NCBI GenBank assembly: GCA_022539475.1
Contig: VCMS01000029.1
Span: 124,001 to 188,000, forward strand
Direction of reading: 5' to 3'
Source: Gracilaria domingensis
Lineage: Eukaryota > Rhodophyta > Florideophyceae > Gracilariales > Gracilariaceae
DNA length: 64,000 nt
The notes under the pieces: generated by a model
What the model was told of the DNA's origin: nothing
The model's database searches: none
The model's input: the letters and a program-made list of their open reading frames with translations, nothing else
Position numbers and translations under genes: made by a program
Shown: piece by piece, positions 5,752 through 64,000 of the stretch
Position numbering within the stretch: the stretch's first letter is position 1
Layout: every line of letters begins with the position of its first letter

Positions 5752-5756
5752 CACGA

Positions 5757-5792
5757 GGGAGGGGGGGGGGGGGGGGGGGTGGGGGCGGGGGG
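5757..5792. repeat. Poly-G (poly-C in mRNA) tract before transketolase start
   Basis: On the plus strand there are 19 consecutive G at 5761-5779, then T, GGGGG, C, GGGGGG. In the transketolase transcript this would be a C-rich tract ending about 5 bases before the ATG. The exact run length may be unreliable because such tracts are hard to sequence. It lies in the 314-bp spacer (5752-6065) between the AAA+ gene and transketolase; nothing else was seen in that spacer. Confidence 0.7.
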
Positions 5793-6065
5793 AAAGAGCT
5801 ATTCACCGAGACGAGCTACGCGAACGTGGGAGACCGACGGCGACGGGACGCGAGTCGGGGGCGGCGCTGCTTAACAAAACAGCCGGCAGACACGCGAGCA
5901 GCTCGCGACGGTTGCGCACGAGTTGTGGTTGCGCATTGATGGCTGCGGCAGCGCGCCGTACGCACGCCGAGCTCAGTGCGCGCCGTCCACGAACGCGCGC
6001 CACGTTGCCACGCCGCGCGCAACGGCGCGTAGATTCGCATCTGCCTATACATCCGCCGCGCGTTT

Positions 6066-34464: not shown

Positions 34465-34905
34465 TTTGGTCTCCCGACTTAGAAGTCGCGTTGATCCAGC
34501 AAGTTGGTTTTCTGATCAATTTCCGGTTTGCCGGTTCGGTTCTGGTCGCGGAGATACACTACACAGTTTGTACTGGAAGGCTTTGCCGACAGACGTCGTG
34601 TTGGTAGTGCTTTCCTAATTTTTGGGTTGTTGTTTGGACACGGTTTACTACCGGTGGCACTACCTATTTCCGTAGTGTGTGATTCCCGTCGGTACGGTTG
34701 TTGTCACCCCGTTTGGGTTGTCTACTGTTCCCAGCAATCTGGTCGAATCAGCCCTAATTCCGTATACGGCTGTTCCCGTTGGTACGGTTGGTTCGTCCGA
34801 TTTGTCGGTTATCGTCACTCGTGTGAGGACGCTACACTCATTCGAGGTTAATTTGTTGTTTTGCTTTCCTGTTCCCAGTTTTCTGGTTGTATCTCGTCGT
34901 GGACG
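34465..34905 (+). other. Untranslated leader of the LTR element
   Basis: 441 bp between the 5' LTR and the gag ATG, beginning with the putative primer-binding site. A CCCGTYGGTACGGTTG phrase occurs twice (about 34684 and 34767). Open frames here start without ATG and are not taken as genes. Confidence 0.5.
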
Positions 34906-36994
34906 ATGGTGTCGGGCAAGCGCTCGAGCCCCGCGAAGTCTCGCTCCGTTGGCTCTGGCTTGCCCCCGCGTCTGCGGTCTGTTCCTGAACCCCTACAGGG
35001 GGATGGAAAGAAACCCGGAAACCGGGAACAGCCTGTCAAGTCGTCTGACGCCCCAGTGGCTGGGCCCTCATCTGCTCCTTTGGAGGGTCTTATACCCGCT
35101 GTCGCGGCGAAGGATGCGCTCGTAAACGAGTTGGAGACTCAAGTTCGTGTGCTTGAGGCTCAGACTGCTCTCATGAGGAGTTCTCATGAAGCACTCGTTT
35201 CCGAGGTCGACACACTTCGTTTGAAGGTTGACGCAGCCCTCAACGGAGGTGTATCAGATGATCTACGTATTTTACGGAAGGATGTTAATGCACTCTTGGA
35301 GGTTCTTCAAGGATATCCCGGTTTCACCGAGGAGGTCGACACGAAGTTCATTCGAATTCTTGGCCGTCTTAAGACGTTAGAGGCCACCATCCGTGAGGAT
35401 GACGGCCCTGCTGCCGCCTCTGCGGGAGTGTCTCGTGGTACACGTGACCGGAAGTCCGGGAAGAGTCGCTCTAAGAAGAGGAACGTCGACGAGTATGACT
35501 CGGATTCGTCACAGTCTTCTGGTATTTCAAACCGCTCGGCGGGTTCCTTATCATCGAGCTCGTCAAGTGACGGTGAACGTCGCGCACGTTCTACGCGTTC
35601 GCGGAGTTCTACGTCCACCTATGGTGTTGTTGGTACCCGGAAACTGGGGCGAAAGCATTCAGGTTTGAGGGAACTGGAGCCGACGAATCCCTTGTTCAAA
35701 AGGTTGTTATCTTACCGGTATTACCGTTTGGAAGATTCAAGTCTGAATCGGACGCCCCGTGGCACGGGTAAGGTGAAGGACTGCATCAAACGCATGTCCT
35801 TAACCTTTCGCAACCAGTTGTTCACTGGGGAGGATCCCATTCTGGTGCTTGACTTTCTTTCACGCTTTGTAGCGGAAGCTGACATCCTCGGCATGAGTGA
35901 GGGGCAAGCTTATGTTGCCTTACCGTATTTTCTACGTGGACTCGCTGAAGATCAGTATAACTCTGTAAGAGGTTCATCTCGCGCCTCTGAAGGAGGGGTC
36001 ACCTGCTGGCCCGAAGCAGTGCAGTATTTGTTGCGCTCGTATGCCACAAATATCTCTATCGAGGAAGCAATCACCGCGTTGCGGGAGACGAAACAACGCC
36101 CGAAGGAGTCGGAGACCGAGTACTCGGTACGCCTGAATAAGGCATTCCACCGTTGTGGCAATGTTTACTCGTCAAACGAGCGCTGTACGCTGTTTATCAA
36201 CGGATTGAATCCGGCTATTCGTACTCTGGTTGCCCAGCGACGGGAAGACCGGAAGAAGACTACCTACAGATCTGTAGTTAGTCCAGTACGCGAAGGCGGA
36301 GGGAGACGCCTTGCGCGCACGCACCGGATACCGGGTTTCAACCAAAGCGTTGCACCTCGACGGAGGGTCGTCATCAGCTTCACTGCTACTGCAGGACTTT
36401 TCTGGCCACGATGTGGATAACTTACATCTCGCACAGGTGGACCTGGATTCTATTCCGACTACGGAGTTGCCTTCTCCTTCAGAAGCCTCGTCGAAGACGG
36501 AAGATGCGCTGCTTTACGCAGACCGTCCACGCGTTCGCGGTCCTCAAGTACCCTATTCAGGGAGTCGTTACCAGCGACCTGGTTGGGTAGACCCGCGAAC
36601 GGTGAAGTTCCAAGACCCACGGAGTTCCGGAAGACCACCCCTGATCTGTTTCACGTGTTACAACCACGGTCATGCAGCTCCGAACTGCAACCTCTCGATG
36701 AGGGAAATGCCCACGGTTGTGGCGAATTTTGAAGCGCTGACCCCCGCCGAACAAGCGTCAGTGCCGGTAACCGCTTATCTGCGGGCGAAAACAGAGTTTC
36801 CTCGGAGAATTTCTGCCGCAGAAATAGCTGCGTTGCTGCACTCTGGTTCGACCCAGGTCAATGTTTCACCGGCTCAAGCAGCGGCGGCAACCGCTGCTGC
36901 AGGTAGTTCTGTCGCTGTTCCCCAGGAATCTGTGAAGAGGCCTGCTGCACAGGACGCCGTTCCCGTTAGAACGGATGGAACTCAGTTAAACTGA
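34906..36994 (+). pseudogene. gag of LTR element (one frame change)
   Basis: Starts at ATG 34906. The N-terminal part is Ser/Lys-rich with a coiled-coil stretch (about 35115-35260), then a Ser/Arg/Asp low-complexity linker, then the capsid-like region (FTGEDPILVLDFLSRFVAEAD, ALPYFLRGLA, YATNISIEEAITALRETKQ, TEYSVRLNKAFHRCG). Between about 36277 and 36300 the homologous reading moves forward one frame and continues to 36994, including a CCHC zinc knuckle CFTCYNHGHAAPNC (36649-36690) that binds the RNA genome during packaging. Gag forms the virus-like particle. The frame change looks like a 1-bp indel, not a programmed site. The end overlaps the pol frame through a slippery sequence. Confidence 0.85.
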
Positions 36995-37587
36995 GTACGG
37001 GAGTCTCCAATGGAGAGGCGCCCGAGTCGAGGTCTACGGCTCCCGAGGCGTCACCGCCTCGCTCCCAGGTCAGAATCCTTTCGAGGAAACAGACCGTCTT
37101 AGACGTGGACTCTACCACCATTGGTGTGTTACGTCGCCCGTGGATACGGTTCAGGAACAACCGGATCCCGGATCGAGTCATGGTAATGGCCAAGCGAAAC
37201 TACAAGATATTTGCTGACCTTGGCCTATCCACGCAGTATATGGTGCGTCCTCTCTCTGTCTTGGATACAGGTGCTGGCCCCAACTTCATTGTTGAGTCGT
37301 TACTACCGCCGGAAGTCCGTTGTCGAATCCGCCATGGACCCGTCATGGACGTGGCAGATGCTAACAATAACCCGTTACAAACAGCTGGAATGGTTTCACT
37401 GATTGTCAGGATTGGTAACTGCATCGAGCAGGTAGAATTCATCGTCTGCAAGACGCTCGCTGGCCCTGTCATTCTAGGGTGTGACTTCTGCGACAGATAT
37501 GTCGAAGCCATACGACCGCGTGCGCGTGAAGTGGAAATGGAAGACGGTTCGGTTGTACCGATTGTTCGTCGCTCATTACGCCGAGCG
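36970..37587 (+). CDS. Protease region of pol
   Basis: Open in the pol frame from just after TAG 36967 and ending at TGA 37588-37590. It holds the aspartic protease signature LDTGAGPNFI (about 37261-37290) and a later VILGCDFCDRY segment corresponding to the conserved ILG motif. The enzyme cuts the Gag-Pol polyprotein. There is no own ATG near the frame start, which agrees with expression by frameshift from gag. The frame continues without a further break after the TGA into the reverse transcriptase, so the TGA is either a nonsense mutation or a readthrough stop. Confidence 0.8.
36985..36994 (+). promoter_or_regulatory. Candidate -1 ribosomal frameshift site, GTTAAAC then TGA
   Basis: In the gag frame the last codons are CAG TTA AAC TGA. 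G-TTA-AAC is a known slippery heptamer type (used, for example, by equine arteritis virus), and sliding back one base enters the pol frame, which is open from 36970 onwards. A short stem CTCC-AAT-GGAG follows at 37005-37015 and a stronger GAGGCG-TCAC-CGCCTC at 37045-37060. Confidence 0.6.
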
Positions 37588-37590
37588 TGA

Positions 37591-39126
37591 GCTAAGCTGG
37601 TACCACTACCCACTCCTCTACAGGATTCCTCACTTCCGAAGGAGTCGACGAAGCTCCGCGTAGCGCGTGCAATTTCTATTCCGCCAGAATCTCAGGTTTG
37701 GGTTGATGTTACTGCCGCACCGCGTGGTTTGCGGGTTGTTCAACCATTGAACTCGTTATACGGGAAGTATCAGGTCGCGTTGGCGAACGGAGCTGTTCAA
37801 ATCAACGGCGAACACCCCTTTCGGGTTCTGTTAGCCAACTTTGGCAAGAAACCCCAGTATCTGGTGAAGAACCAAGTAATTGGAACTGTACTACCGCACC
37901 CTACGGCGCTTATCCCTACAAAGGTGACTGCCGCCGAGATGCTCGGGATTGCTGAAGAACGCACTGGTGTGCTTCACCCTAAGGAGAGGGAGGGAGATTC
38001 GTCGCACTCATCTGCGTCGGACCCGTCTCAGACGGTTGAACAACAGAATGACTCGGAAGTTAGGACCGTCCCTACGAGTTATGACAAGATTGACCCTATC
38101 AAGGAGTTAGAAGAATTGAATCTCGGTCATGTACCGGTTTCACACCGTGAGAAGTTGCGCAACATGTTGCGAGAGTTTACACCAATGTGGGATGGTTCCC
38201 TCGGAGAGGTTTCAACTACGGAACACCGGATTGACCTCCTGCCGGAGACCAAGCCGATTGCTCAGCACCCTTACAGGGCAGGCCCGAAAGCACGGGAAGA
38301 GGAAGAGTTTCAGATCAACAAAATGCTCCACGCTGGCGTGATAGAACCGGCTCAGTCGCCGTGGGCATCTCCAGTTGTACTGGCTCCGAAACCCGATGGG
38401 TCCTGGCGCTTTTGTATCGACTATCGTCGCTTGAACGATGTCACCGTCAAAGACGTGTACCCCATACCTCGTATGGACGAGTATATCGACTCGCTTGGCG
38501 ATGCTACTGTGTTCTCCACTTTGGATGCAAACTGGGGTTACTGGCAAGTACCAGTTAGACCGGAAGACCGTGACAAGACCGCATTTACCTGTCATTCAGG
38601 ACTATACCGCTTTAAGCGTATGCCGTTCGGGTTAACGAACGCCCCCGCTACGTTTCAGCGTGCTCTGGACATTTTGTTAGCTCGCTTCAAATGGCGGAGT
38701 TGCTTGGTATACCTCGATGACATCATCGTGTTTTCCAACAGTTTGGACGATCACCTCGAACATGTTCGGGAGATAATGACCGCTTTGCGGGATGCTGGAA
38801 TTACTCTCAAATTGAGGAAGTGTGAGTTTTTCACTGACTCAGTGAAGTATCTGGGCCATGTCATACGTCCAGGACGGTTACTGATCGAGGAAGCTCGCGT
38901 GAAGTCCCTCAAGGAGGCGAAGCACCCCACTACACAGACAGAGCTACGCTCCTTTCTGGGGCTATGCAACGTTTATAGACGGTTCATTTCTCGCTTCGCG
39001 AAGATCGCGGGACCGCTCAACGAACTCCTGAAGAAGGGACAACCGCCCAAATTGGGACCACTTACCCCCACGCAAGTGGAGGCTTTCAACTCTCTTAAGA
39101 GGCTGTTAATACGGCACCCGTGTTAG
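37591..39126 (+). pseudogene. Reverse transcriptase region of pol
   Basis: Same frame as the protease. Conserved blocks: APKPDGSWRFCIDYRRLNDVT, YPIPRMDEYIDSLGDATVFS, PFGLTNAPATFQRALD, the catalytic YLDD in CLVYLDDIIVFS (38704-38739), and KYLGHVI. It copies the RNA genome to DNA. At about 39100-39119 the homologous reading drops back one frame (…LLI then TAPVLALPK), entering the RNase H frame; the local sequence is not a standard slippery heptamer, so a 1-bp deletion is the simplest view. Confidence 0.92.
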
Positions 39127-42041
39127 CGTTACCGAAGAATGGGTTGCCGTACACCGTGGATACGGATTCGAGCGATTACCAAATTGGCTGCGCTCTCTTT
39201 CAGACTACACCCGAAGGGGAACGCAAACCAATTGGCTATTGGTCTCGTACACTCAACGTGCACGAGCGCAATTACTCTGTATCCGAGAAGGAGTGTCTCG
39301 CCATGGTATGGGCTTTGCAGACTCTACGACCATATCTTATGGGTGTGCACTTTACCGTCAATACGGATCATTCCGCCTTGCGTTGGTTAATTTCAGTCAC
39401 GGAGCCTTCCGGACGCTTATTGCGTTGGCGTCTTCGTCTTGCCGAGTTTGACTACGAGGTCACCTATAAGAAGGGTTGTTTAAACGTGCAAGCGGATGCT
39501 CTTTCACGTCTGGGAACGGAAGGTGAAGCTTTACCCGTCGATGACGAGGATGAAGATATCCCCTGTTTCCTCATGGAGGAGGGTGATGAAGACTACGACA
39601 TCGTGTCGGACGACATCTGTGATTATTTGCTCGTCGCAGACGGTGAAGACCCGGAATCCGGTACATTCGTCCCCATTACTCCAGAAGAGCTGGTGCGGGA
39701 ACAGCAATCTGACCCGTTCTGTACGAGGATACGCCCCCAAATTAATGGTGGTGCTAACATCCCGTTCGGGGAAAACACACAAGGTTACCTCGTCAGAGTG
39801 GTTCGTTCTACCCCACAGATTGTGGTTCCTCACTCCTTACAAACAAGGGTACTGCATCTCTCGCATCACTCGCGGATGGCTTCCCATCCGGGTGCTAAGC
39901 GGTTATACACGACACTGCGTCGGGATTTCTACTGGCCCGCGTTAGCGTTGGACTGCTACACCACCGTGAAGGCGTGTACACATTGTGCTCGCGAGCGAGT
40001 TAAACAGCGTCGCCATGCGAAGAAACTAACACTTTTCCCGGCAAGGGCGCCGTTGGAGTTTATTGCCATCGATATACTCGGTGAGTTCTTGCGTACTTCC
40101 CGAGGAAATCGGTTCTTACTCGTTATTACGGATAGATTCAGTAAGCTAGTCCGGAAAGTTCCGTTGAAGTCGATTACAGCACGCAGTGTTGCGGAGGCAT
40201 TCGTTCGCCATTGGGTTATGGTCTACGGTCCCCCGGTCAATCTCCTCTCGGATAATGGTCCGCAGTTTACTGCACGTTTCTTCCAGGATGTCTGTCGGAT
40301 ACTCGACGTGGAGAATCTCTTCACGACGACGTATCATCCCCAATGCAATGGGCAAGTCGAACGGTTTAACCGGACAATGCTCTCCGCGTTGCGGGCTTAT
40401 ACTGTTGAACACCCGAAAACTTGGGATCTCTACACGGACACCGTGACGTATGCGTATAATACGCAAGTTCACAGAGTAACTGGTTTATCGCCCTTTGAGC
40501 TCGTGCTCTCACGGACACCACCGCCAGTTGCGGTTGAACCATCAGCAAAGCTGGATACGTCACCGTCAATACGGGATCACTATTTGCAATGGAAGCAGTG
40601 GTTATCCGCAATGGTACCTGTCGCCAGGTCGTCAATGGCGAAAGCACAACACGCTTACAAGCGGAACTTTGATGCCCGGGTACGGAGACCACTACCGCCA
40701 CTGAAAGTGGGAAACCTCGCCTTTGTCAGGAAAGAGTACTACAACCCTGAAAAGGAGCGGCGCCACAAGCTTTCACCCATCGCTGATGGTCCATACCGCG
40801 TTATTAGCGTGAATACGGACACAGTCGTACTGGAAGTTGGCGACGCTCATGAGCGTTTCTCCCGCGATCGTGTTGTGCAGGGCCCAACCGTGCACACGGA
40901 AGTAGTTTCGAATTCACAGCAGGAAGCTGGACAGACACAGAACCGAGAATTCTCGTCGCAGAACACTACACCTACTGTAGGGCTTCGCAACCCTGCAAGG
41001 GGTCTCGCAGAGGTACCGATTATATCGTCCCAAGCCGAGATATCGGAACATACACCGCTGGTGAAATCGCGTTTCACAGCGTCTATTACACCGTCAACAG
41101 ACGTGATGACTGCTCCCCGTAACGCTCCACCTAAGGAGGCGGAGGAGGATTCACGCGTCGTCGCGGAGAGTGAGTCACCGGTGTCGCTGCCGTCGCAGCA
41201 CCGTGATTCACGGGAAGATAATGAAGAGGAGGCGGAGTCGCCTCAGGACACCGTCGAATACTTAGTTGCTACGGACACCACTGTCAGTGGGAAGGATCAC
41301 CCGCTGTCGCGTGTTCAGGCCGCGAAGGACGCGCTGCAGTCGGCCGCTGTCGCGCAGAACTCCGCGGAGGATGCGCAACCTTCTACGAAGGATCGCGACC
41401 TTTCTGAAGGATACCGCACGCAACGAACGGACTCGAGGTTGTCCCAGGATACTGGTATCGCTCACCCGCTTGGGGAATTGTCGCCAGAACACGCGCCCAT
41501 CGCCTCGTCGGCGCAGGACGCGGAGCATGCTCTCGTTCGCGACTTCACCACGGCAAGGCCGGAAGTTGATCCAGAACACTCGACTTCTCGGCAGAGTGAG
41601 GCTACAGCGAAGCTGGATACTGTATCACGGAGTATTCCGGACGCGCAGTCGCCGCAAACCGTCGCTGACGACCGCCACATACCGCCTTCGCGGGCGCGCG
41701 CTAAGGAAGTCACGGCAGATCCCGGTACCTTAGACACTGCAGAGCAGGAAGAAGAGAAGACGCTCGCTGAAGCGAAGATCACACACCCCGGTTCGGGTAA
41801 TGGTAGTGTACCGTTGCACTCAACCGTGGGGAAGTCGCAAGTCGCACGTCATGACGTTTCGCTAATTCATGACGGCGCACCGCTCGTTGGAGATACGGAT
41901 TACAGCCCTGATTTAGGGAAAACGCACACTGCAGCTGCAGGAGCGCTTGCGCACCACAAATCTTGGGGCGCGCAGCGCGCCCCACACAATGGGTCAGTCA
42001 CAGCTCGTGGCAGTGCCACCACCGCGAACCGTCGCGTGTAG
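39108..42041 (+). pseudogene. RNase H and integrase region of pol
   Basis: RNase H: VDTDSSDYQIGCALFQ, SEKECLAMVWALQTLRPYL, VNTDHSALRWL, QADALSRL. Integrase: zinc-binding HHCC region (LHLSHHSRMASHPGAKRLY…CTHCARE), catalytic triad Asp in FIAIDILGEF, Asp in LLSDNGPQFTARFF, Glu in HPQCNGQVERFNRTMLSALR, and the GPY-like motif DGPYRVISV. From about 40900 to 42041 follows a tail of some 380 residues rich in Glu, Ser, Asp and Ala without known domain. The frame ends at TAG 42039-42041 but stays open behind it into the chromodomain. Confidence 0.92.
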
Positions 42042-50012: not shown

Positions 50013-50015
50013 TCA
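50013..50015. other. Target-site duplication of Harbinger element, left copy (TCA)
   Basis: TCA lies directly before GGCGGTGTCTAAA; the same TCA follows the right end at 58938-58940. PIF/Harbinger elements make 3-bp duplications. Confidence 0.7.
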
Positions 50016-50057
50016 GGCGGTGTCTAAAGAGGCGTTCACGTGAACGCGTTCACGCGT
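50016..50057 (+). repeat. Harbinger left terminal inverted repeat and subterminal palindromes
   Basis: GGCGGTGTCTAAAGAGGCG is followed by TTCACGTGAACGCG and TTCACGCGTTCA. CGTTCACGTGAACG is a perfect 14-base palindrome and CGTTCACG recurs, as expected of binding sites for an element-encoded protein. Confidence 0.75.
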
Positions 50058-50447
50058 TCATAATTTACGTGTGTAAAGAAAAGAACTGTAAATTAAATTT
50101 CTAACGCTCTCCAAGAGTTTAATGGTCCAAACAAAGGACCACCAACCCACTTTGTATTCTGCGCTCATTCATTCTACAGTTTGCAGTTTGGCCCCTCAGT
50201 GTATGCCGATAACAACGAGTCACAAACATCGACGCAAACCGTCCATGCTGCCTGCGCTTACAAACACCAAATCAAGCCGAACGCATTGGTTCTATAAGGT
50301 TTGCAACGATCCGCTCTATGTCTAAGCGCGCTTCTGCCTATAAGTGCTTCAAAATGTTACGAACAATGCGTAATCAAACTTGGCACCATTCATTTCTGCT
50401 AATCTTCTCCATCTTCATCAGTCTGCGTTCGCAAGCATTTCTCCATC

Positions 50448-51720
50448 ATGACATCCCAGCCTTTGAGCCCTATCGTCATGGTAATTCTTAGCGGTGCTCA
50501 AAAACGAGCGGTAATTAACGCTGCCAGTCTCAAAGTGAAAGAAATTATTACTCGAAACCGCAGTTCGACTAACTCACATCATCCTCCATCACGAACCAGA
50601 AAGAATGTTTTTTTCGAAACTATTACAGACTTTCTCAGTGACACGGCGTTCAAAAGGGCTTACCGCATGAGTCATGCATCTTTCTATAAACTCGTCAGAA
50701 TGCTTCTTCCACATCTAACTAAGAATGAAGAGATGGGAAAACGCTCGGGCAGACCGACACTTTCCGTTTCAATTAGACTCGGGATAATCTTGAGTCGCTT
50801 GGCTGGAGGGAATGTCGACACCATTCATCAACTATTTCGGAGACAACGCTCGACAGTGTACAGGGTTTTCTTGGAAACTTGTGTTGCTCTATCAACGGTT
50901 TTACAGCTTCCCGGCATTCCTGATTCATTTCATGACCTTTGTGAACTTTCTAGAGGGTTTAAAACTTCTAGAGCCAACCCCAGTCCGTTGAGCGGATGCA
51001 TCGGTGTCATTGATAGAATCACCATCAAGATAAAGCGTCCTAGTGGAAATGCAGCGAAGTATTGTTGTAGGAAAGGCTACTACGCGATACCTGTCCAGGC
51101 GGTGGTTGACTACGCTGGCAGGTTTTTGTTTGCTTCCGCAAAGTGGGTTGGGTCAACGCATGACTCGTTAGCATATGCAGCTTCCAGGCTTTCAAAGTTT
51201 TTGAACCAGCAAGGGTTTCCTATAGAGTTTTGGATTGTAGGCGATGAGGCTTATGTTTGTACTGACAATTTGATAACCCCAATCCCTGCGTCACAGGCTC
51301 GTCATTGGTATCAGAAGGCGTTCCAACTATTTTTTATCTTCTATGAGAATACATGTTGAGCAAGCATTTGGAAGACTAGTAGCTCGGTGGAGGATTTTAC
51401 AATGTCAGCTTAACTATTCCGTTAGTATCAATGCGAGTATTATTGTCTTATGCATGAAGCTTCAAAACTTCTGCATTGACGAAGGGGAGCAGAAAATGAG
51501 CGGTTTATCACTAAGAGAAGAACAGGACGTGGACAGAGAAATCAATTCGTGGTATTCCGCTAGCAAACAAGGGCTCGCAGAAATGGCAACTGCATCAGAT
51601 GATGCCCAATTGAATCCAGACGCGTTGCTGTCGACTACGAAGCGAGAAAAAATGGTCGAGATTATCCGCAGTCGTAATCTACACAGACCTCCATTAAGAG
51701 GAGCACCTGAGCCTCTTTGA
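50448..51720 (+). pseudogene. PIF/Harbinger DDE nuclease (one frame change)
   Basis: From ATG 50448 in one frame to about 51310, then the homologous reading moves to the frame ending at 51720; total about 424 residues. The N-terminal part includes FKRAYRMSHASFYKLVRML, typical of the DDE_4 family (F....RM....F..L). The first acidic site is in GCIGVIDRITIKI (Asp about 189), where the usual Gly-Thr-His after Asp is changed; the second is in VGSTHDSLAY (Asp about 239); GDEAYV follows; the last acidic residue is in MRIHVEQAFGRLVARWRIL after the frame change. The shift is explained by one extra base around 51322-51335. The nuclease cuts the transposon ends. Altered VIDxx motif and frame change suggest this copy is inactive. 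Confidence 0.85.
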
Positions 51721-51774
51721 TTTGGATATGGACTTTTTGCCAGTTCACTGTGGACCATCACCTCGTACCTCACT

Positions 51775-54700
51775 GACCGGAAACAATCCGAACCATCGAA
51801 GCAGCATGACAGCGATTCTGATTTGAGTGAGCCGCTACCATCGGACGAGAGTTTAGATGATGAAGAAACTTTTCGGGCTGCAGAAATTGAAGAAGCTCTT
51901 GCTGTGTTGGAGGAGCAAACATTTGCTGGAAGGCTGCTGCCGGAATCGAAGAGATTTTGCGGGCCCCAGGCATTGATCCTGATTTGTTCAGGGCTGACCA
52001 GACCAATTGCCTCAAGCCTCAGAATGACTCGGATGTTTCGAACCCATCAGAGCCAAAGTCTGGAGACGTGCAAACCACCGAGAATGGTGTAGAGCATAAT
52101 TCTTGCAACAGCGTTGAACTTCCAGAGAGGGCTAAAAATCAAACCACCGCTGATCGAATGGTTGTAGTGTCATCTGCTGTGGTGCCTGGGAAGGAGAAAG
52201 AAGTGGATGGAAAGCAGATCGTGGCAGCAATGGGTAACTACGGTTCAATGAACGGAGAGTCGACAAAGACTCGATGTGAAAGTATTTGCTCTCAACAAGA
52301 TTGTCGCTCGAACACCGTCTCAAACTCTCTAAGCGCCGATACAAATGTTACAGCTGAGAAACTGACCGAGACTGAAGATCTGTCTCGAAATTTTTGTGCC
52401 CCGGTTATGAATGTACAGCCTTTCGCGGCCAAATCAGAAACAGGGCCATACACTTGTCTCCCTAAGTAACTACTTCGAGGTAACCCACGGGACTACCAAA
52501 TGAGAGGTTTAGATTGGCTTCAGACGCTGTGGCAAAAGAACCTCAACGGGATTCTAGCAGATGAAATGGGTCTTAGCAAAACCATCCAAACGATAGCGCT
52601 CTTGGCGTGGCTTGCAGTCGAAAAGGAGATATGGGGACCTCATCTTATAGTCTTTCCGACATCAGTCATGGTCAAATGGGAGGTAGAATTTAAGAAATGG
52701 CTTCCTGGCTTTAAAGTTTTGACCTACTTTGGGAGCGTGAAAGAACGAATGGAGCAGCGGCGAGGATGGACTAGACCCGATATGCTTCATGTTTGTATAA
52801 CGTCGTACACGCTTGCTGTGCAGGAGTCTCTTATTCTGCGAAGGAAGAAGTGGTACTACTTGATTTTAGACGAAGCTCATAACATCAAGAACTTCGAATC
52901 CCAACGATGGCAGACCCTCTTGACGTTTTCCTCTCGGCATAGGCTGCTCCTAACAGGGGCGCCCCTACAGAACTCTGTCATGGAACTATGGTCTCTCATG
53001 CATTTCTTGATGCCGAAACTCTTTGCAAGCCATTCATGGTTTAAGGATACTTTTTGGAAGCCTCTGATTGAAGCTGTAGAAGCGGAAAGGGAATCAAATC
53101 GGGGGCGATCAGAAACTGTTTCTACTCTTCATGGAGTGCTTCGACCTTTCTTGCTTCGTCGATTGAAAGCGGATGTAGAGAAAGGTCTTCCTCCTAAAAC
53201 GGAACATGTTATATCTTTTCGTTTAAGCAAAAGACAACGGCAGCTTTACGAGGACTGCATGGCTCGAAATGATACTCGGGAAACTTTGCAATCAGGAGAT
53301 TTCTTCGGAGTTATGAACGTTCTGATGCAACTACGGAAGGTTTGTAATCACCCAGATCTGTTTGAAGGACGCCCGATTCTCTCGCCGTTTTCGTGCGCAG
53401 CTGTTTTTTATCCAATTCCTACTATTGTGGCTCGAGCCATCAGAGAAGATGTGAGACACAATGTAACACTACGACTTTTAGGGCTAGACTTTCAGTATGG
53501 GGAATCAAACTCTGCCGGAAGATGGTACGAGGACGAAATCGCGCGCATCTCGGCTGTGAAACAGATGCGAAGTGACCTGAAAGACGAGGCAACTGCCGAT
53601 TCTCTTGGGGGTAACTTGGATTTTATACCTAGTGGCCCGGGTGGTCAACGTGCTCTTTCTCGCAAGGCTGCGTTTCGTAGAGCTGCCTTGCATCATCAAG
53701 TTCTTATTCATGCCTTGAGAATACGTCAGCGTGCTATACTTGGACAAGATCTGAGAAAAGTATTCACTATGACTACTTCGTCTTTGAGCCGACAGATTAG
53801 CGCGAACTCTCGTACAGAGTCTGTTGCGGACAAGCCAAGAGTATGTATGGTTCGCTCTGTTGAGGAGTTCATTGGGAGGGCAAATCCGATTGCTCATCGT
53901 TTCTTCTGCTGCGTAACGCGAGCTATAGCTCCTTGTGTTGCGCTTCGCTATTACGGCGATGATATGCTACGAATGAGAGAACGAGATCAATACCGTAGAT
54001 TGGCGCGGAAATCTTCTGGATTTCGGGCTCTTTTTCGTGAGTTTGAGGTTCGAAGTCAAATTACGATTCCTGATATAAGACTTATTCAGTGGGATTGTGG
54101 AAAGCTTCAAACACTAGAGCGCTTAATTCGTGAGCTGAAAGTACGGAAGTCTCGAGTACTGATCTTTACGCAGATGACAAGGATGTTGGATATTTTGGAA
54201 TCCTTTCGCAATCTCCATTGTTCTCGTTATCTCCGGTTAGATGGTACAACAAAGACGGATGATCGACGGAAAGTAGTGAAAGGTTCAACGCTGACACGAG
54301 GATTTTCTGCATGATTCTTACAACCAGTGCCGGTGGTGTTGGGCTTAACTTGACGGGTGCCGATACTGTGATTTTCTATGACTCTGACTACAACCCTGCA
54401 ATTGACAACCAAGCTCAAGATCGAGCCCATCGTATTGGTCAGACGAAACCGGTTCATGTATACCGTCTTATCTCGGAGCAAACTGTGGAAGAAAGCATTT
54501 TGAAACGTGCCATGGAGAAAAGGACTTTGGAACAGCATGTTATTTCCCAAGCTGGCTTTACTACGGACGCGATTCAGGGAGCTAGAGGATTGTTGAAGAC
54601 AGGTACCGTTGGGTGCGGGAGCACAGTTGGGGAGGGATTTACTCTTTCACGGAACGCGGAAAAGTCAGATACAGTCAAAAATGGGTTTCGAAGCAGCTCG

Positions 54701-56642
54701 GAGACGAGTGATGAAAAGAAACAACACCGTACACCAGAGAACTGGCGGAATGGTTCCAGTTCCGAGAAGGTTGGGAAACTGTCAACCATGGTTGATATTC
54801 AAAGCTCATGTGGACTGTTTATGGGATTTAGATTTGGGAACGGTATCGAAACTGTTTCTCATCAAGGAAAGTTGGAAGGAGATTCGACTGAATGTGGTAG
54901 GGACAGGGACATGAACGAGGATCAAACCATAGCTTCGAAGCTGCTTGCGAGCGAAGATGAACGAGAAGAAATGGATCTGCAGGTTGCGGAGAAAGAGAAG
55001 AGAGATCTTGAGGCTGAGTTCAAAGGCACACCAATTGCAAACCAAGGACGTTTGTCAAAGAGAACTGATGTGCGTCCGAACGACTCAGAAGATCTTAACA
55101 AGCTCCTAGATACATTAACACCCATTCAGCGATATGCACTTCGTGTTCTTGAACGTTTAAACAGCGCTAAACCTTTCACGCATGTTGACTGCTACGTGGG
55201 TACACCGCCCGTGACTTCGAGTCAGGAAAGTGAATCGGTGTTGGAAAGCTTTCCATCTAGAGAGTACAAAAGGAAGTCTGATTCCGAATGCAGCGGCGAG
55301 GATGACACGCAGTCTCTGCTTTATGAGATTGATGTTACGGACGAAGGGCAAACAAGTTATTTAAAGGCGCCGACGGACGCCGACGCGGACATTAAATTGT
55401 ACCTGCCGCTACGCGACGGTGGTCCGGAAGAGCTCAAGTTTTCGACGGTTGTACTCGGCACGGCAGTGGCAGGTTTGGAATGCGCGGAAGACGCAGCCTT
55501 CTTTCCCCATGCATACAACAGGATGAGTCGGAGGATGCACGCAACGAGAAGGCAGAAAGAGAAGGGTCTGGAAAACCTGCGGAAGAGGAAGGCGGAAATC
55601 GAAGTGAAACGCAAGCATGAGGTTTCAAGCTCTGTCTCTAACCAAGGCTCCAGCCCAAAGGTTTATTCGGCAGATACATGCAGAGAAGAAGCAAGGCGTT
55701 CTAGTAATTTAGAAAGAGTGAAGACGTCGAAAGGCAAATGTGATATGTCTCGTTACCCGCCTCCGAATGTTCATTCAAAGAAGACGAGAGTTGATCCTGG
55801 TCCAAAGTCAGGAGCTAATGTGGCTGTCACTAGCTCTGTTACCGGGCCCGAATCTCATGCCGGTATGGGCGGTTTGTTAAGAATCAAACCCAAGAAGAAT
55901 GTGAGAAAGTTTACCATTCCTGGAATGAAATCTTCTATAGCATTCTACGGAGGCAACATGTGGAATGAGCATCAAGGTGTAAACGATGAATAGACCAAGG
56001 AGGAAGATGAAGCATTGATCGCAGCTGCTTCGGCGTGCAACAATATCATGTGTTTCATGGCTGATCTTTTGTCATCGCAAGCATCCGTGAGATTGGGGGC
56101 TCGTCGATATCGTCCTATAAGGCACCGCGTTGATAGGCTCCTAAATGTGTTGGGGAAACACGTCAAGAACGACCCCTTGCTCCCGAAGTCGACCACCTCA
56201 GAATCGGATACATCGGAGATATCACCAAGCATTTCAGAATGCATTTGCGGTATTACGGGCAAAGCCTGTGGTCCCAGTAAGGACTGGGCAGACATCAGCA
56301 GAAATGAATCCTTCCCGTCATAAGCTTCTTTCAGAAGCGGCATCAAAGAAGAAAGGATTGGTACGCCCAGATATTTTGCCTCCTATCTCGGAGATTCTTG
56401 ACCTGTTCGAAGTCCGTGATCATCATAAGGCTGGTTTAAAGAGTGATGAAACCACACATCAAGGTCAGTCAAAGCGTAAACCGTTCATGTTTGCCCTAAG
56501 GGATGACCCCAGACGTGGCAACGGATTCACAGACCCCATCAACGGATCACATCAAGATCAAACAAGCTCCGTATCGAAAGGTGGAGAACAAAACTCCAAG
56601 AGCACAGATAAGGCTCCGGTTCAGAAGGGAGCGAGCAAATGA
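51775..56642 (+). pseudogene. SWR1/PIE1-class SNF2 chromatin remodeller, decayed copy
   Basis: Acidic N-terminal stretch (SDESLDDEETFRAAEIEEAL, about 51836-51895); a frame change near 51920-51950; TAA 52467 just before the block LLRGNPRDYQ; then the ATPase: DEMGLSKTIQT (Walker A, usual Gly replaced by Ser at 52575), LIVFPTSVMVKWEVEFKKW, LDEAHNIKN, LTGAPLQNSVMELWSLMHFLMP, LMQLRKVCNHPDLFEGRP, a long insert (about 53390-53990, the INO80/SWR1 hallmark), then after a frame change near 54285 [31 protein letters not shown]. Near 55990 TAG stands where a SANT domain begins (then TKEEDEALIAAASA). A further frame change leads to the last reading, ending 56642. SWR1-type enzymes exchange H2A.Z into nucleosomes. 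No HSA domain is visible. The copy sits immediately behind the transposase. Confidence 0.8.
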
Positions 56643-56855
56643 GCACGAACTCAAAGTACGGGAACTTTACACCGCCCTAGCGTTCAGAACCGGACTTCTG
56701 CTGCCCCTCGAAGCAGCTCTACCTTGAAATCTAAGACCGTAGATTTGAAGAATCCAAGTGAGGTGGGTTCCCATCGTGTGCAACAGCTGCGGAAGCGGAA
56801 GGCGGTAGATGCAACATATGTGCAAACTAAACTAAAATGGATTATCGCGAATACA

Positions 56856-58550
56856 CTAAGAACCGTCATTGTCGCCCATGCCACTTGAGTGCAACATAGA
56901 CTTGTACTTTTTGAGCAGTTGTACACGGTTATCTTCCAAAACCTCGATCAAATCCTCGTCATTGAGCTCATGAGCTCTCTTGAGCGATGCAGAGCTTTCA
57001 GCAAGCATTGTAGCAATCCTAGTACGATTCACAATGTTGTCCATGTCCTGCTCTGCGGAGGACTTCTTCGGTCCTTGCTGCCGTTCCAAATGCCTCCGCA
57101 GAATGACCGTTTGCTCCTCTGATATCTTGTTCGACCTACTAACTTCTCTAGATATTTCACCCAATTCCTTAAAGCTTCCGCTATTTCGTCCACTCGATAC
57201 TGTCTTTTGGACAGTTCGAAACGCCTCATGACTCTGTACACCACCAAGAACACCTTCCTCAACACCTCCTCCTTCCTCCTCAATAAGCTTTGAGGCCTTA
57301 TTTAGCAAACTGTTAGATTCATTCTCGGTTCCCAGTCTTGAAACAATAAAAAAGATATGAGCACGCTTTGCTTCGGCAGTAAGAGCTCCACCAGGAGATC
57401 TCTCCAGAAACTTTGAAATGTTCGATGGGTCATTTTGACCTGACACAGACCAATTAACTCTAGCCCGCGTCACAGAAGCTCTAATGTTTTCAAACTGCCT
57501 TCGCAAAACAGCTGCTCCTCTAAAACACAGGGGACGAAGATTTGAATCCATGTTGTCCAGCTTACCAGCAAAGCAATGCTTAGAATCTACAGCACTGTCA
57601 TTAAAACGATCCGCAATTATCAGCCAAAACGATTCACGAGAGACTCTGGCGTTGAGCTCGTCCTTAGTTAAAATATCACCAATAGCTTTCTCCAACGCCA
57701 ACTTTGCTTGGTCGTCATCCCGAAGAATAATCATTAGCCTAGCAAATTCTTTCAGGCTGAAATAAGGTTCTTTGTGCCCGGATTCTTCTTCCAGTGTTAG
57801 CGGAAACTGCTCAGACCCCTGCGGCATTCCTTGGTGTGCCCTAATGAGCCGCTCAAATTTTCCGCGATCCCTCTGGTGAAGCATGTTCACAAATTCACCC
57901 ACTTGGGGTAGCTCTGTTAATGCGCTTCTGCTCTGAATACAGTTCTTTTCCCACCCAAAGAACGACATCAAGCTTGAATTAAGAGAAATAGAGTCTCTTA
58001 TACTGACATCTTCCAAACTCTTGACATGGAAGAAGAGCACAATCTGCGAAAGCAGTTGCGCTTGCTTTCTACCATGAACGACCAAGTGATAGGGCTTGCA
58101 AACGTCTCGTAGTTGCGCAACTGTTTTCCGAAGTAGGAAAGAATACAGATATGCCATGCGTTGTTCTCGAAAGTGCGGGACGTTGAATGGAGAAACAGTT
58201 ACCTCTGACGATGACGGCGCATCGCCCGGATTCGCACTGCCTTGTTTGGATGCAACTACATTTCGACTGTCAATGTCTTCTCGCGGAGTTAGAGTAGGTA
58301 CGCTTTGAGGGAGCGCGGACGCAGAGCTCGAATGCTTGCGTGGACTGCGACGTGGTTCTGATCGTGCAATACGGTCGCCCTGTCGGTGAAGAGAGTTGTG
58401 CTTACGGGGACTCTTTCGTATTTCATGCTGTGCGCGGTATAGTTCTCCCGTTTGGGGCGGCGCGGCAGTTACGGTAGGCGAAGAAGAGGACAACGAACGG
58501 TGTCTTGCTTTTGGAGAAATCTCCTGATTTGAGAATTGCTTGTGGGACAT
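56856..58550 (-). CDS. SAP-like domain protein inside the Harbinger element
   Basis: 564 residues from ATG at 58550; the frame extends to a TTG at 58784. Residues 1 to about 120 are Ser/Arg/Lys-rich with repeated RKSPRKH-type basic patches (AT-hook- or NLS-like). Around residues 155-190 is TVAQLRDVCKPYHLVVHGRK followed by QAQLLSQI, which fits the SAP DNA-binding helix-loop-helix. The rest is helical and charged with a long coiled-coil-like C-terminus. No enzyme motif is seen. Unlike its neighbours in the element it has no stop or frame change over 1.7 kb, and it converges on the remodeller copy with 213 bp between. It could be the element's DNA-binding partner (usually a Myb/SANT protein in Harbinger) or a captured host gene. 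Confidence 0.6.
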   Translation of the reverse strand: MSHKQFSNQEISPKARHRSLSSSSPTVTAAPPQTGELYRAQHEIRKSPRKHNSLHRQGDRIARSEPRRSPRKHSSSASALPQSVPTLTPREDIDSRNVVASKQGSANPGDAPSSSEVTVSPFNVPHFREQRMAYLYSFLLRKTVAQLRDVCKPYHLVVHGRKQAQLLSQIVLFFHVKSLEDVSIRDSISLNSSLMSFFGWEKNCIQSRSALTELPQVGEFVNMLHQRDRGKFERLIRAHQGMPQGSEQFPLTLEEESGHKEPYFSLKEFARLMIILRDDDQAKLALEKAIGDILTKDELNARVSRESFWLIIADRFNDSAVDSKHCFAGKLDNMDSNLRPLCFRGAAVLRRQFENIRASVTRARVNWSVSGQNDPSNISKFLERSPGGALTAEAKRAHIFFIVSRLGTENESNSLLNKASKLIEEEGGGVEEGVLGGVQSHEAFRTVQKTVSSGRNSGSFKELGEISREVSRSNKISEEQTVILRRHLERQQGPKKSSAEQDMDNIVNRTRIATMLAESSASLKRAHELNDEDLIEVLEDNRVQLLKKYKSMLHSSGMGDNDGS

Positions 58551-58937
58551 ATCGTTGACACGGGGAAGAAAAAGCTGCGTTGGGAACAGCGCGGTTCGGG
58601 GAACGCAACTCTGTGAAAAAGGAGAGTATAAAAAGCCTATAATGAAAGCTGCTTCTGCACCCTGGGAACTCGGAGATGTGTGTGCAACTTGCCCTACAAT
58701 GCACAGGATGCATTGTATCTGGCACTTTGGTCCGGTAGGGAGTCTATGAATTTCAATTCGAATGATTGGAAGTAACGGCAACAATTGCTACGTTTTGGTT
58801 TGCCAATGGGGGGTCTCCTTACAGGTTGTGGGGTTTTGAACAAAAGCTTCGGGGCGTTAACGAGCGTTTATGACCCACCTACTTCCTGCCAATGAATGGC
58901 CGTTCACGTGGACGTGAACGCCTGTTTAGACACCGCC
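58551..58937 (-). repeat. Harbinger right end: promoter side of SAP-like gene and terminal inverted repeat
   Basis: The right terminal repeat (58912-58937, reverse strand GGCGGTGTCTAAACAGGCG then TTCACGT) ends the element. Inside it CGTTCACGTGGACGTGAACG (58901-58920) is a near-palindrome. The remaining sequence upstream of the SAP-like ATG shows nothing else; TCA follows at 58938-58940. Confidence 0.7.
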
Positions 58938-58963
58938 TCAGTCTTACGCGGCGGCGGCGGGAG

Positions 58964-60366: not shown

Positions 60367-61343
60367 TGTAGAGCAATCGCGATTTCGCGTTTGTGACGTG
60401 TTCCGTCTCATAACACCTCGGCTTTCTGAGTTACCTTACAGCAAGGTTATGAATTTAGGTGGCATTCTGACGCCATATGGCATGGTGGCACCCGATGGGG
60501 TTGATAGATTGGTAACTGGTTGTGGCAGTGGATCGCGTGTATGCGTGTATGGATTGGCTCTGTTACAGAGAGAAATGGATTGGTTATTAGAATTAGTGGC
60601 CGCCAAGGCGGGTCCGCACTGTGCAACACGTGTGTCGCTCTGCCGTATTTGGCACTACTTAGTTAAATTATTTAGTTTAATTTGTGGAAACGTACTTAGG
60701 TGATGGCGACCTCGCCGTCACCACCACAAAGTAAACTCAAACTTGTCCGCGGCTCTGACGTGAGCGCCTGCGCGTAAGGCACAACTCCGCGAGGAGGGTC
60801 ACGGCGTACGGCTTCGCTCATTTCATCCCCAAGGGATCACTCAGGTACCCTGATCTAACACTACGTTTGTCTTCGGACTGTGTTCGCACATTTATTTGCA
60901 GGTGTCTGCTACTCTGGTGTTCGGATATTGTATCGACTCTGTATAGAGGTCTGCCGCGTGGGCTCAATACACATCGTCACCCTCGGCCCGGGTCTGTTGT
61001 CGCTTGTCGCACGACCCCGCCCTCGGGTTTTTCCCTTTTTCTTTTCTTTCCTTTCCCCTTTTTTCCATCCTTTTCCCTATCTTTTCCGTTTTCTTCGAGG
61101 CACCCCGTCGACCTGGGTTCCTCCCATTCCGCCTCCGATCAGAGATCTCCGACTCTCGGGCGTTTGCTTACAGATCCCCTCTTGGCGATTCCCGCCCTCA
61201 CCTCCGTAGTATTTCCGAAGTACGGGCGGATTTACGCCCGCGCTATCCGTATAGGGAGGGCTCTTCTGCTGAGTCTACCTCCCAAGGGAGCAAGGATTCG
61301 AGCACCTTGAGTGTCATTTCTTCCAAGTGGGATTTGCACTACA
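60367..61343. mobile_element. Solo LTR inserted in the second gypsy element
   Basis: 977 bp with ends TGTAGAGCAATCGCG and GGATTTGCACTACA (TG...CA), flanked by identical CCTTT (60362-60366 and 61344-61348). No internal coding region remains, as expected after recombination between two LTRs. It separates the integrase core from its C-terminus. It differs from both other LTRs here, so it marks a third LTR family. Orientation is not clear. A pyrimidine-rich run lies at 61020-61100. Confidence 0.85.
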
Positions 61344-62110
61344 CCTTTCTTCAAATTCAAGTTCTTAGTAGATAGCATAACCTTGTCATAAACTTTAAAT
61401 AATTGTTGCTTGCGTTTGGCATTGATGTCGTCTATCATTTTGAGGTTGGTGGCTTCGATTGATGCCTTCGCAACTTCGGTTGCATACTTGATGTTATCAA
61501 TGAATTTACCTGTAGCATCATTGGTGATGTCGGTTTCGTCATGATGGAGAAAACCCGAAATCGTCACTGGATGTTGACCATACTCCAGGAAAAATGGTGT
61601 TTCATTGGTTGCATCATTTATATAATTATTGTACCCAAATTCAAGACCAGAGAGGTAGATGTCCCAATCGTTTTGAGTGTAACTGATGAAACATCTTAAC
61701 GTTTCCTCCAATGTCCTAAAAGCACGTTCTGATTGTCCATCGGTCTGTGGATGAAACGCAGAGGAAAGATTGAGCTTTACGCGTAGGATTTGCATAAGTT
61801 CTTTCCAGAAGTTTCGCGTGAATCGTGAATCTCGGTCCGATATTATCTTTCGCGGTAAGCCATGATGTTTATAGACTTTTCGGTAAAACACTTCGGCTGT
61901 ATCTTTAGCGTTAACATTGCTTTTCATGGCTATAAAATGAGTTCGTTTTGATAACTTATCCACGACAACAAGGATTGAGCGCATTTCATCCTTGGTCTTT
62001 GGTAGGTCGAAGATGAAATCCATTGAGATGACTTCCCATTTATTACTCGGTGGAGGGAATGGTCGAAGAAATCCCATCATCTTCTGATTGGTACTCTTGG
62101 CGCTTGGCAT
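61344..62110 (-). pseudogene. Integrase core of second gypsy element
   Basis: Catalytic Asp in VISMDFIFDLP, Asp in KIISDRDSRFTRNFW, Glu in HPQTDGQSERAFRTLEE, then a region ending STKNLNLKKG at the solo LTR. The zinc-binding part lies in the preceding RNase H piece (HRGSQRTISL…CPECQ), in another frame, so a frame change lies near 62100. The integrase inserts the DNA copy into the host genome; this copy is inactive. Confidence 0.88.
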
Positions 62111-64000
62111 TCAGGACAGTTTCTTATAAATTCTTTGATATCTTTATTCATTCCAGGCCAGAAGAAATCTCTTTTTGTTAGAGATATAGTTCTTTGGCTT
62201 CCTCTATGAGCACCAAGTAAGGATTTATGGTTTTCAGTCAAGATTTGTTTTCTTATCTCTCCTTCAGGAATGCATAGACGATTTTCAAAATATAGTCTCT
62301 TCTTTTTCAAATGAAATGGTTCTCTGGTATTTTGAATTACGACTTTAAAGAATTCATCTTTTTCATAGCATTTTTGTAAGTTTGTTAAAATGTCATCCTT
62401 TATCTTTATGATTGTAATGTTCATAAGTTTTCGGATGATCTCTGAAGAAATTTTCTGCTGTTCCTTGTGCTTTCTTGATAAAGCGTCAGCACCTTTATTA
62501 TATTTTCCTTTCAGGTATTTGATTTCGTAATCAAATTCTTGCATGAATCCCATCCATCTTGCTTGTTTTCTTGATAGCGTTTTTTGTGATTCTAAGTATT
62601 TCAGAGGGTGATGATCAGTATAAATTATAAACTTCGATCCATGTAAATATGCTTCGAGAGCAAACACTATAGCTAGTAGTTCGCGTTCATGCGTAGAATA
62701 TCCTTGTTCCGCGCTAGGTAGCTTTCTGGAAGCATATGCAACTGGTCGGCTTCCTTTCTCATCCGTTTGTGTAAGAACTGCACCAATGCCAGTTTGGGAT
62801 GCATCCGCTGTTAATTCATATGGTTTTGTTGGATCTGCACACCTTAGCACTGGTGTATCGCTTAATGCTTCCTAAAGACTAAAAAAGGCTTCTTGTTGTT
62901 CTTCCTTCCATAGAAAGGGTATATTTTTCTTTGTGATATCTGATATTGGAGCTGCTATACGTGAAAAATCTTTGACAAATCTTCTATAATAGTTACATAA
63001 TCCTAGAAAGCTTTGTACCTCAGTAACATTAGAGGGTACTTCCCAATTTTTAATTACTTCCGTTTTCTTGGGGCTAACTCTTATGCTCTCTGCAGTTATG
63101 ATATGTCCAAGGCATTCAATTGAATTCTTCATGAAGTCATATTTAGATATTTTTCCATAGAGTTCATGTTTCTTCAGGATTTCAAATACGATTCTTAGGT
63201 GTTTTAGATGTTCTTCTTTTGTTTTACTGTAGATAAAAATATCGTCCAGATAGACGAGTAATAATTGATCTAGATGTTTACCGAATATTATATTCATATA
63301 TGTTTGGAAACATCCTGGGGCTCCTGTGAGTCCAAAGGGTGTTACTAGATATTCGAACTGTCCATATCTTGTTCGAAAAGCAGTTTTTTCAATATCATCT
63401 TCTCTGACTTTTATCTGATTATACCCAGACCTTAGATCTATAGCAGAAAAATATTTTGCACCTCCTACCTGATCCCATGCTTCGTCGATTCTTGGGAGAG
63501 GCACTTGATTCTTAATTGTTTGTTTGTTTAATGCACGATAGTCAACACACATCCTTAAACCACCATCCTTTTTCTTTGCAAATAAAACTGGACTTCCCCA
63601 AGGACTTATACTTGGCCTTATGAAGCCATGATTTAACAGTTCGTTTAACTGCTTTTTCATTTCTTGTAACTCCATTTTGGATAGCTTATATATAGGTCCC
63701 ATTTTAGGATTTGCTCTTTCTTTCAGATCGATTTTCATTTCAATCTCATGATCAGGAGGCAACCTCTTTGGTAGTTCTTTAGGGAAAACTACTTCATATT
63801 CTTTTAACAACTCTTGTAGTAGGATGTCCATTTCGTGTTTCTTAACTTCAGGATCCACTTGGTCCTTTTTCGACTTTTTCAGGGAAGGGTAGATCACGAG
63901 TGTGGTTGGGGTTTCGTGCTTTGCGGTCCAAGTCAGGAGTGAGATGTTCCAGCGTGACCCAGCGCTCATGCTTCTTAATTTCTTGCAACGAGTAGAGACA
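62077..64000 (-). pseudogene. Reverse transcriptase and RNase H of second gypsy element, cut by window edge
   Basis: Reverse transcriptase blocks: AKKKDGGLRMCVDYRALNKQ, PLPRIDEAWDQVGGAKYFSA, PFGLTGAPGCFQTYMN, catalytic YLDD in LLVYLDDIFIYS (about 63241-63276), SFLGLCNYYRRFV. After TAG (62872-62874, in phase) the RNase H follows: LTADASQTGIGAVLTQ, STHERELLAIVFALEAYLHG, YTDHHPLKYLE, KGADALSRK, then the integrase zinc-binding region. Upstream reading near 63900-64000 is better in a different frame (EIKKHERWVTLEHL), suggesting another indel. It continues beyond the window. Confidence 0.92.

Follow-up and report, generated by a model that had tools for sequence, protein, structure and literature searches.

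This study asked what a chromatin-remodeller sequence is doing inside an apparent transposon of the red alga Gracilaria domingensis. The window, the whole 64,000-nucleotide stretch that was analysed, is C29:124001–188000, and the genome searched comprised 77.9 Mb in 680 contigs. The original prediction had described, at window positions 50016–58937, a Harbinger-type transposon enclosing a DDE nuclease, an SNF2 protein of the SWR1/PIE1 class, and a "SAP-like" gene. It had proposed that the remodeller might help the element open chromatin or might be a passive capture. Our analysis identified a genuine transposon with a dead captured fragment, and not a remodeller-armed element.

The element, its two genes, and its second copy

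Window positions 50016–58937 were found to form a single mobile unit, in which matching ends and TCA duplications enclose a DDE nuclease, a SWR1-class SNF2 stretch, and a convergent SAP-like gene. The features of the element, apart from the SNF2 stretch, are as follows:

50013..50015, no strand: left target site duplication (TSD), TCA, identical to the TCA at 58938–58940
50016..50062, + strand: left terminal inverted repeat (TIR), first 13 nt perfect, 47-nt arms, 79%
50448..51720, + strand: DDE_Tnp_4 nuclease (PIF/Harbinger type) by Pfam, frameshifted near 51323 in the window copy
56859..58550, − strand: SAP-like second gene of the family, 564 aa from the ATG, open in the window copy
58891..58937, − strand: right TIR, pairing with the left arm
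58938..58940, no strand: right TSD, TCA, matching the left TCA

The inverted ends and matching TCA duplications of the original prediction were confirmed. The terminal sequence GGCGGTGTCTAAA occurred at exactly two sites in the 64 kb, 50016–50028 on the + strand and 58925–58937 on the − strand, and no further site was found in the window with up to 2 mismatches allowed. Two matches at 2 mismatches were obtained in 35 of 100 shuffled controls and are not rare; both real sites are exact. The terminal arms are 79% complementary over 47 nt, a length within the range of about 25–50 bp given for PIF/Harbinger TIRs in the available part of PMC9179366. Matching 3-bp TSDs were present in four of the five elements for which both ends were read (TCA at C29 and C41, TAA at C181 and C214); the fifth, on C9, is flanked by TGA and TCA. 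Relatives of the window element have similar ends. An element end just after 51720, which had been named as a possible refutation of the larger unit, was looked for, and none was there.

A DNA search of the genome with the left 485 bp of the element identified nine places, including the window's own. Alone among the others, C41:206476–215376 matched the whole 485-bp query, and it proved to be a complete copy. This copy is 8,901 bp long, is identical to the window element at 8760 of 8900 aligned bases (98.4%), and has the same ends and content, including the SNF2 and SAP-like sequences, within different flanks and its own TCA duplication. Because the second copy has other flanks and its own TCA pair, we conclude that the window element is a mobile PIF/Harbinger-like transposon with SWR1/PIE1-class sequence inside it. 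The different flanks and 1.6% divergence speak against C29 and C41 being one locus assembled twice.

The predicted DDE nuclease proved correct in its identity: Pfam DDE_Tnp_4, the nuclease kind of the PIF/Harbinger superfamily, was matched in both nuclease frames of the window copy (1.9e-17 and 5.8e-6). What needed correction was its state, as the window copy is frameshifted; the C41 nuclease is one 432-aa frame, in which the D, D, and E residues were read by eye. Judged by these frames, the C41 nuclease or that of a relative could be the mobilising enzyme, the window copy's own being frameshifted.

The name "SAP-like" was the original prediction's guess for the second gene. The gene is indeed present inside the element as an open frame, but Pfam scans of three members, of which one was a partial frame, gave no match to SAP or Myb in any of them at E-values up to 5. 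No confident relative of the protein was found in Pfam, NCBIfam, or PDB, the last queried with a 4-row profile; one Pfam match was to DUF7522 (E 0.099). A search of 5.8 billion proteins gave no homologue at E ≤ 0.001 among the 7,995 candidates scored. A single-sequence structure model had a pLDDT of 36.6 and was unusable.

Protein searches of the genome gave 72 matches for the 642-aa SAP-like frame, merged to at least 59 places (69 of 129 candidates scored), and 98 matches for the nuclease, merged to at least 92 places (97 of 244 candidates scored). Among the matches listed, 41 of the 59 SAP-like places had a nuclease within 12 kb. The spacing of these pairs ranged from 1.0 to 10.2 kb. Because all 41 pairs were convergent, we conclude that the SAP-like gene is the family's own second gene and not cargo. 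Capture of this gene from beside the host SWR1 gene was also considered; no such gene was among the neighbours read on C122. Equal nuclease-to-SAP gaps were seen in three sets of places: about 7.02 kb at C8, C4, C163, C390, and C87; about 4.89 kb at C216, C12, and C30; and about 6.85 kb at C40, C287, and C232. From these shared lengths, large-gap forms of the element seem to have been amplified.

The captured SWR1 piece and its donor-type gene

The features of the SNF2 stretch, numbered by the codons and positions of the host gene on C122, are as follows:

51765..56786, + strand: captured internal SWR1/PIE1-class piece, C122 codons 430–2105, 96% identical, with both SNF2 lobes and the insert and without HSA and both gene ends
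52467..52469, + strand: stop at host codon 665, ahead of the SNF2 domain, common to the C41 copy
52575..52577, + strand: changed Walker A glycine codon, GLGKT to GLSKT, common to C41
55991..55993, + strand: stop codon at host codon 1840, common to C41
56787..56804, + strand: older SWR1 remnant fused to element sequence, its end near host position 8004, with the same junction in C214, C9, and C38 (by eye)

The predicted start of the remodeller within about 60 bp of the nuclease stop was borne out, since the piece starts at 51765, 45 bp past that stop, and ends at 56786. Its 5,022 bp (element positions 1750–6771) aligned with C122 over 5,026 columns at 96% identity. The C122 gene is an open 2,533-aa frame with HSA (residues 173–240), SNF2, and Helicase_C domains; its SNF2 lobes, at residues 674–962 and 1210–1322, are separated by 247 residues. 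The closest listed relatives of its protein were a EukProt transcript (82%, residues 660–1700) and Agarophyton chilense (80%). On the basis of the long insert and the database names, we assign the C122 gene to the SWR1/PIE1 class. It is flanked by what we take, by eye, to be gamma-tubulin-complex-like and eIF6-like frames. Across the 12.3 kb read at this locus, nuclease and SAP-like matches reached E 0.87 at best, and no end of an element was found. Because the same SNF2 sequence and its flanks stand there in an ordinary locus without element features, C122 holds the donor-type gene and the element copy is a transduplicate. Such a host locus lacking terminal repeats had been proposed as grounds for rejecting the transposon; it was found, and it makes the element copy a transduplicate without refuting mobility.

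The predicted long insert of the INO80/SWR1 class is real, with both lobes lying within the captured span, and Pfam detected SNF2-rel_dom (3.7e-80) and Helicase_C (4.5e-6 and 2.2e-10) in the window frames; the stretch itself, however, is broken and truncated. Beginning at codon 430, it lacks the HSA domain and the gene start of a SWR1/PIE1 ATPase, and its frame is interrupted by a total of 3 frameshifting deletions and 3 stops. The C29 and C41 pieces have identical break points relative to C122 and share 1-nt and 2-nt frameshifting deletions and the stops at host codons 665, 1840, and 2057. One extra frameshift is private to each, and one more stop to C41. Both pieces also have TGAPLQN for TGTPLQN; DEAH is kept.

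Changes were polarised with C57, C201, and C38, and 24 ambiguous sites were left out. The common stem of C29 and C41 carried 28 synonymous and 87 nonsynonymous changes (nonsynonymous/synonymous ratio, w, about 0.93), whereas the host C122 branch carried 11 and 10 (w about 0.27). Changes at the tips were small in number and uneven (13 synonymous and 19 nonsynonymous for C29; 6 and 30 for C41). Between the window element and C41, w was 0.90 over 1,666 codons of the SNF2 piece, and the SAP-like gene was equally relaxed (w 0.87). Because this pairwise ratio does not single out the SNF2 piece, the argument leans on the shared earlier changes. As the disabling changes are shared and the stem is near-neutral, the captured piece was already unconstrained and broken before the C29/C41 split, and dead before the last transposition. 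The window copy probably makes no working remodeller.

The original prediction of an H2A.Z-exchange remodeller as cargo is thus retained in one part, SWR1/PIE1-class sequence within a mobile unit, and lost in the other, since truncation and shared disabling changes leave no working gene. The same features are at odds with the suggestion that the remodeller helps the element open chromatin, and fit the alternative of passive capture for the window copy.

The remnant at 56787–56804 in the window element is the end of an older SWR1 piece, joined to element sequence in the same way as in C214; the 5-kb piece is therefore a second capture, added to an earlier one. An apparent exact abutment of two sets of SWR1 fragments at host positions 7744/7745 was rejected as an alignment artefact; by eye, C214 and C9 run to about 7719 after a short deletion.

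We therefore favour, with high confidence, an explanation in which a host SWR1 piece was copied into the gap of a PIF/Harbinger-like family that has a nuclease and a convergent second gene, decayed unconstrained, and was then transposed. The family has its own DDE nuclease and convergent SAP-like gene, with a tolerant gap between them that receives pieces of host genes. Its ancestor would already have had a short SWR1 remnant adjoining the SAP-like gene. In a second event, the same gap would have received a 5-kb copy of the central part of the host SWR1/PIE1-class gene, now represented by C122; this piece would have decayed without selective constraint, and the unit would then have transposed at least once, giving the window and C41 copies. 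Capture may have occurred by template switching during gap repair, perhaps aided by the resident remnant. Abrupt junctions, some with few shared bases (such as the SacI–SWR1 junction in C57), are consistent with template switching or excision-gap repair.

Recurrent capture in related elements and alternative explanations

Other genes of the nuclease or SAP-like type were also found to adjoin SWR1 pieces, each of which shares the strand of the nuclease or runs convergently to the SAP-like gene (SWR1 coordinates are host positions):

C57: nuclease and SAP-like frames open; a SacI-phosphatase piece, then SWR1 6394–9736; left end read
C152: near-identical partial copy of C57 (99.8% across 2,544 bp), in which no SAP-like gene was seen
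C201: both element genes present, with about 41% and 32% identity to those of the window family; SWR1 3734–9848
C214, C9, and C38: SWR1 ending at 8004 and joined to the SAP side by the same junction in all three; at C38, no nuclease was seen
C9, second element (C9b, both genes), and C106 (SAP-like gene only): SWR1 7599–7744
C12 (nuclease only): SWR1 5608–5749, about 190 bp after the nuclease

Both ends were read for C214 and C9 only, and the left end for C57; the others were placed by neighbouring genes. Distances among the SWR1 pieces were approximately star-like around the host gene, and their end points differ. The exception to the star was the C57–C201 pair, with a synonymous divergence (dS) of 0.34 between them versus 0.41 (C57) and 0.47 (C201) from the host. 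These comparisons point to at least four separate SWR1 acquisitions (C29/C41, C57 with C152, C201, and C214/C9/C38) and probably six, with C106/C9b and C12. Such recurrence, at least four times, beside nuclease or SAP-like genes is the surprise, and goes beyond what the original prediction envisaged. Two other SNF2 genes are represented: an 85–88% copy of the C91 gene lies downstream of a nuclease on C204, and a 92.7% copy of the C30 gene lies beside a SAP-like gene on C301. A C91-type piece on C238, 15 kb from a nuclease, was left out of the counts. All 8 lineages of SNF2 pieces lie on the nuclease strand or are convergent to the SAP-like gene. Inheritance of SWR1 with the nuclease, as an ancestral element gene, is disfavoured: synonymous sites are saturated in the nuclease and SAP-like genes (C41 or the window element versus C57) but not in SWR1.

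Two side observations concern C38 and its relatives. C38:19500–33800 is a decayed duplicate of the host locus (gamma-tubulin-complex-like gene and SWR1); the sequence that interrupts it contains a BTB frame also present in relatives of the element. Sequence similar to this BTB/POZ-frame stretch recurs after the nuclease in C214, C9, C181, and C159; it could represent either an old capture or a third gene of the element.

In the related element at C57:185000–195300, the nuclease (459 aa) and SAP-like (582 aa) frames are both open. Compared with C122, the SWR1 piece of this element has dS 0.41 and w 0.19 across 1,110 codons, and it is interrupted by a single stop and a single frameshift. For the SacI piece, comparison with the host gene on C95 gave dS 0.47 and w 0.11 across 737 codons; read in the host frame, the piece contains no stop, but it has a gap of 11 nt and an insertion of 35 nt. 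An alternative count in the C57 frame, covering 721 codons, gave 0.28 and 0.32, but that frame fails over the whole piece. Such constraint would not be expected of pieces that decay within an element, and the SacI fragment has no obvious reason to be under selection; the simplest reading would therefore be recent capture of both from a genome about dS 0.4 away, which would imply horizontal transfer. Alternatively, the source may have been a second host locus that has since been lost, or a divergent haplotype of the host. The C201 SWR1 piece is similar but more decayed (dS 0.47, w 0.22, 15 stops). The C57 and C201 SWR1 pieces are 85% and 80% identical to the host versus 69% and 65% to the nearest database protein (residues 1171–2285). 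The C57 element offers a direct test of horizontal transfer, in that captured coding pieces carry the signature of the donor species.

Other host pieces were also present in relatives: a DEAD-box helicase (C214), an M13 peptidase (C181), and the SacI phosphatase (C57), of which a broken copy also lies on C407. The M13 and SacI pieces are on the nuclease strand, and the DEAD-box piece is on the opposite strand. As a control, the SNF2 gene with an insert on C55, which we take to be INO80-like, had no copy in the genome, just four matches of 54–139 bp to other SNF2 loci. A control stretch of the window (transketolase and an AAA-type gene) had a 66% match on C21 plus 35 shorter or weaker matches, which ranged from 40 to about 400 bp and mostly fell in a single 0.4-kb part, and C38 was the sole other site of the gamma-tubulin-complex-like gene. 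Pieces of a control 8.7-kb stretch of several ordinary genes were found on C242 (91%), C339 (89–97%), C322 (77%), and C195 (68%), none of which is among the nuclease or SAP-like places listed; therefore gene fragments also arise outside these elements. We conclude that capture of host genes is general in the family. A preference for SNF2 and SWR1 over other genes is suggested but not proven, and the search for cargo was aimed mainly at SNF2 genes, so the comparison with other genes is biased.

Two findings weigh against our favoured explanation: the breaks still leave long frames between them (604 and 560 aa), so that a partial protein could be made, and the repeated acquisition of the same gene on one strand is not explained by plain passive capture. 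Even so, it is very improbable that the element carries a functional SWR1-class remodeller providing the transposon with open chromatin or H2A.Z exchange. The captured span includes both SNF2 lobes and the insert with DEAH kept, and the C57 piece has just the one stop and one frameshift in its 1,110 codons; for C29/C41, however, the missing HSA domain and gene start, shared stops and frameshifts, Walker A change, and near-neutral stem strongly disfavour activity, and the C57 piece begins at host codon 1171, past the first lobe. That the structure is no transposon unit, but a segmental duplication of host genes flanked by inverted repeats through chance, has practically no probability. Although a segmental duplication of the SWR1 locus does exist on C38, which also has part of the neighbouring gamma-tubulin-complex-like gene, the full C41 copy with the same ends and its own TSD refutes this for C29/C41; moreover, the nuclease and SAP-like gene lie inside both ends, and relatives have similar ends.

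The recurrence itself can be read in other ways. SNF2 pieces might be recaptured for the benefit of the element, weakening H2A.Z-linked silencing, for example through transcripts giving rise to small RNAs against the host remodeller or through dominant-negative fragments. We consider this unlikely. The repeated SWR1 acquisitions, the two other SNF2 genes, the common orientation of all 8 lineages, and the lack of any comparable copy of the C55 gene and two window genes favour it; against it are the biased comparison, the neutral decay of the C29/C41 piece, and the capture of other genes, of which SacI and M13 share the strand, so that the strand bias may be general (the C214 helicase is opposite). 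A bolder form, to which we likewise assign little probability, is that the nuclease plus SAP-like transposons of this alga and its relatives take SNF2 genes, SWR1 above all, repeatedly and non-randomly, that the pieces transiently disturb remodeller silencing as protein fragments or small RNAs before decaying, and that elements carry them between species, as the foreign-looking SWR1 and SacI pieces of C57 would suggest. It is also doubtful that one ancient SNF2 piece in the gap was later refreshed by homologous repair from host genes, with no independent capture. This would suit the new capture joined to an older SWR1 remnant in the window copy, the same slot and strand throughout, and a weak 17-nt SWR1 match just past the C57 junction (E 0.013), but the best such match in C201 is 12 nt (E 0.20), no better than chance. 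Furthermore, the SWR1 pieces, at dS 0.05–0.47 from the host and with differing end points, do not share the synonymous saturation of the element genes, and SNF2 genes other than SWR1 were also taken.

Elsewhere in the window, Gypsy-like retrotransposon frames (reverse transcriptase, integrase) were recognised by eye at 34861–42041 (+ strand) and 61232–63969 (− strand).

Comparison with known systems

Gene capture by PIF-type elements is known from maize, and transduplication from a worm element; repeated acquisition of a remodeller is an unexpected pattern. Among the open-licence papers listed, taken by their titles and the starts of their abstracts, we found no report of such capture in red algae or of repeated capture of one chromatin remodeller, and no word beginning with "remodel" or "alga" occurs in the main text of a 2026 review on plant gene capture (PMC13317346). 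If the recurrence holds in an unbiased census, it would be either a mechanistic clue, with resident fragments seeding recapture, or a sign of transposons profiting from meddling with the H2A.Z and SWI/SNF machinery.

According to the portions of PMC2836001 and PMC9179366 available, PIF/Harbinger elements need two proteins, a transposase and a Myb-like ORF1, and produce 3-bp duplications. The algal family resembles Ping/Pong and Harbinger3_DR, as described in those portions, in its DDE_Tnp_4 nuclease, TIR length, 3-bp TSD, and two separate genes; equivalence of the SAP-like gene to ORF1 is putative. It differs from them in that no Myb-like or other known domain was found in the second gene, the cargo gap varies from 1 to 10 kb, and the TSD is TCA or TAA. 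As for the SWR1/PIE1 ATPase of H2A.Z exchange, the captured piece is 96% identical to the C122 gene but is truncated and inactivated in the element.

Turmoil-1 of C. elegans took in two host coding sequences by transduplication, according to the part of PMC2572040 available; its captured pieces lie in the inverted repeats, whereas those of the algal element lie between two element genes. Pack-TYPE elements with PIF ends have been surveyed in maize and rice, and a maize Pack-PIF family is shown, in the available part of PMC8903248. Like these, the algal element has pieces of host coding sequence between its TIRs that move with it. Pack-TYPE elements are defined in that same part as non-autonomous, whereas the C41 copy keeps one nuclease frame and the element has its own second gene. 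Unlike Pack-TYPE elements, the algal elements acquire one host gene repeatedly.

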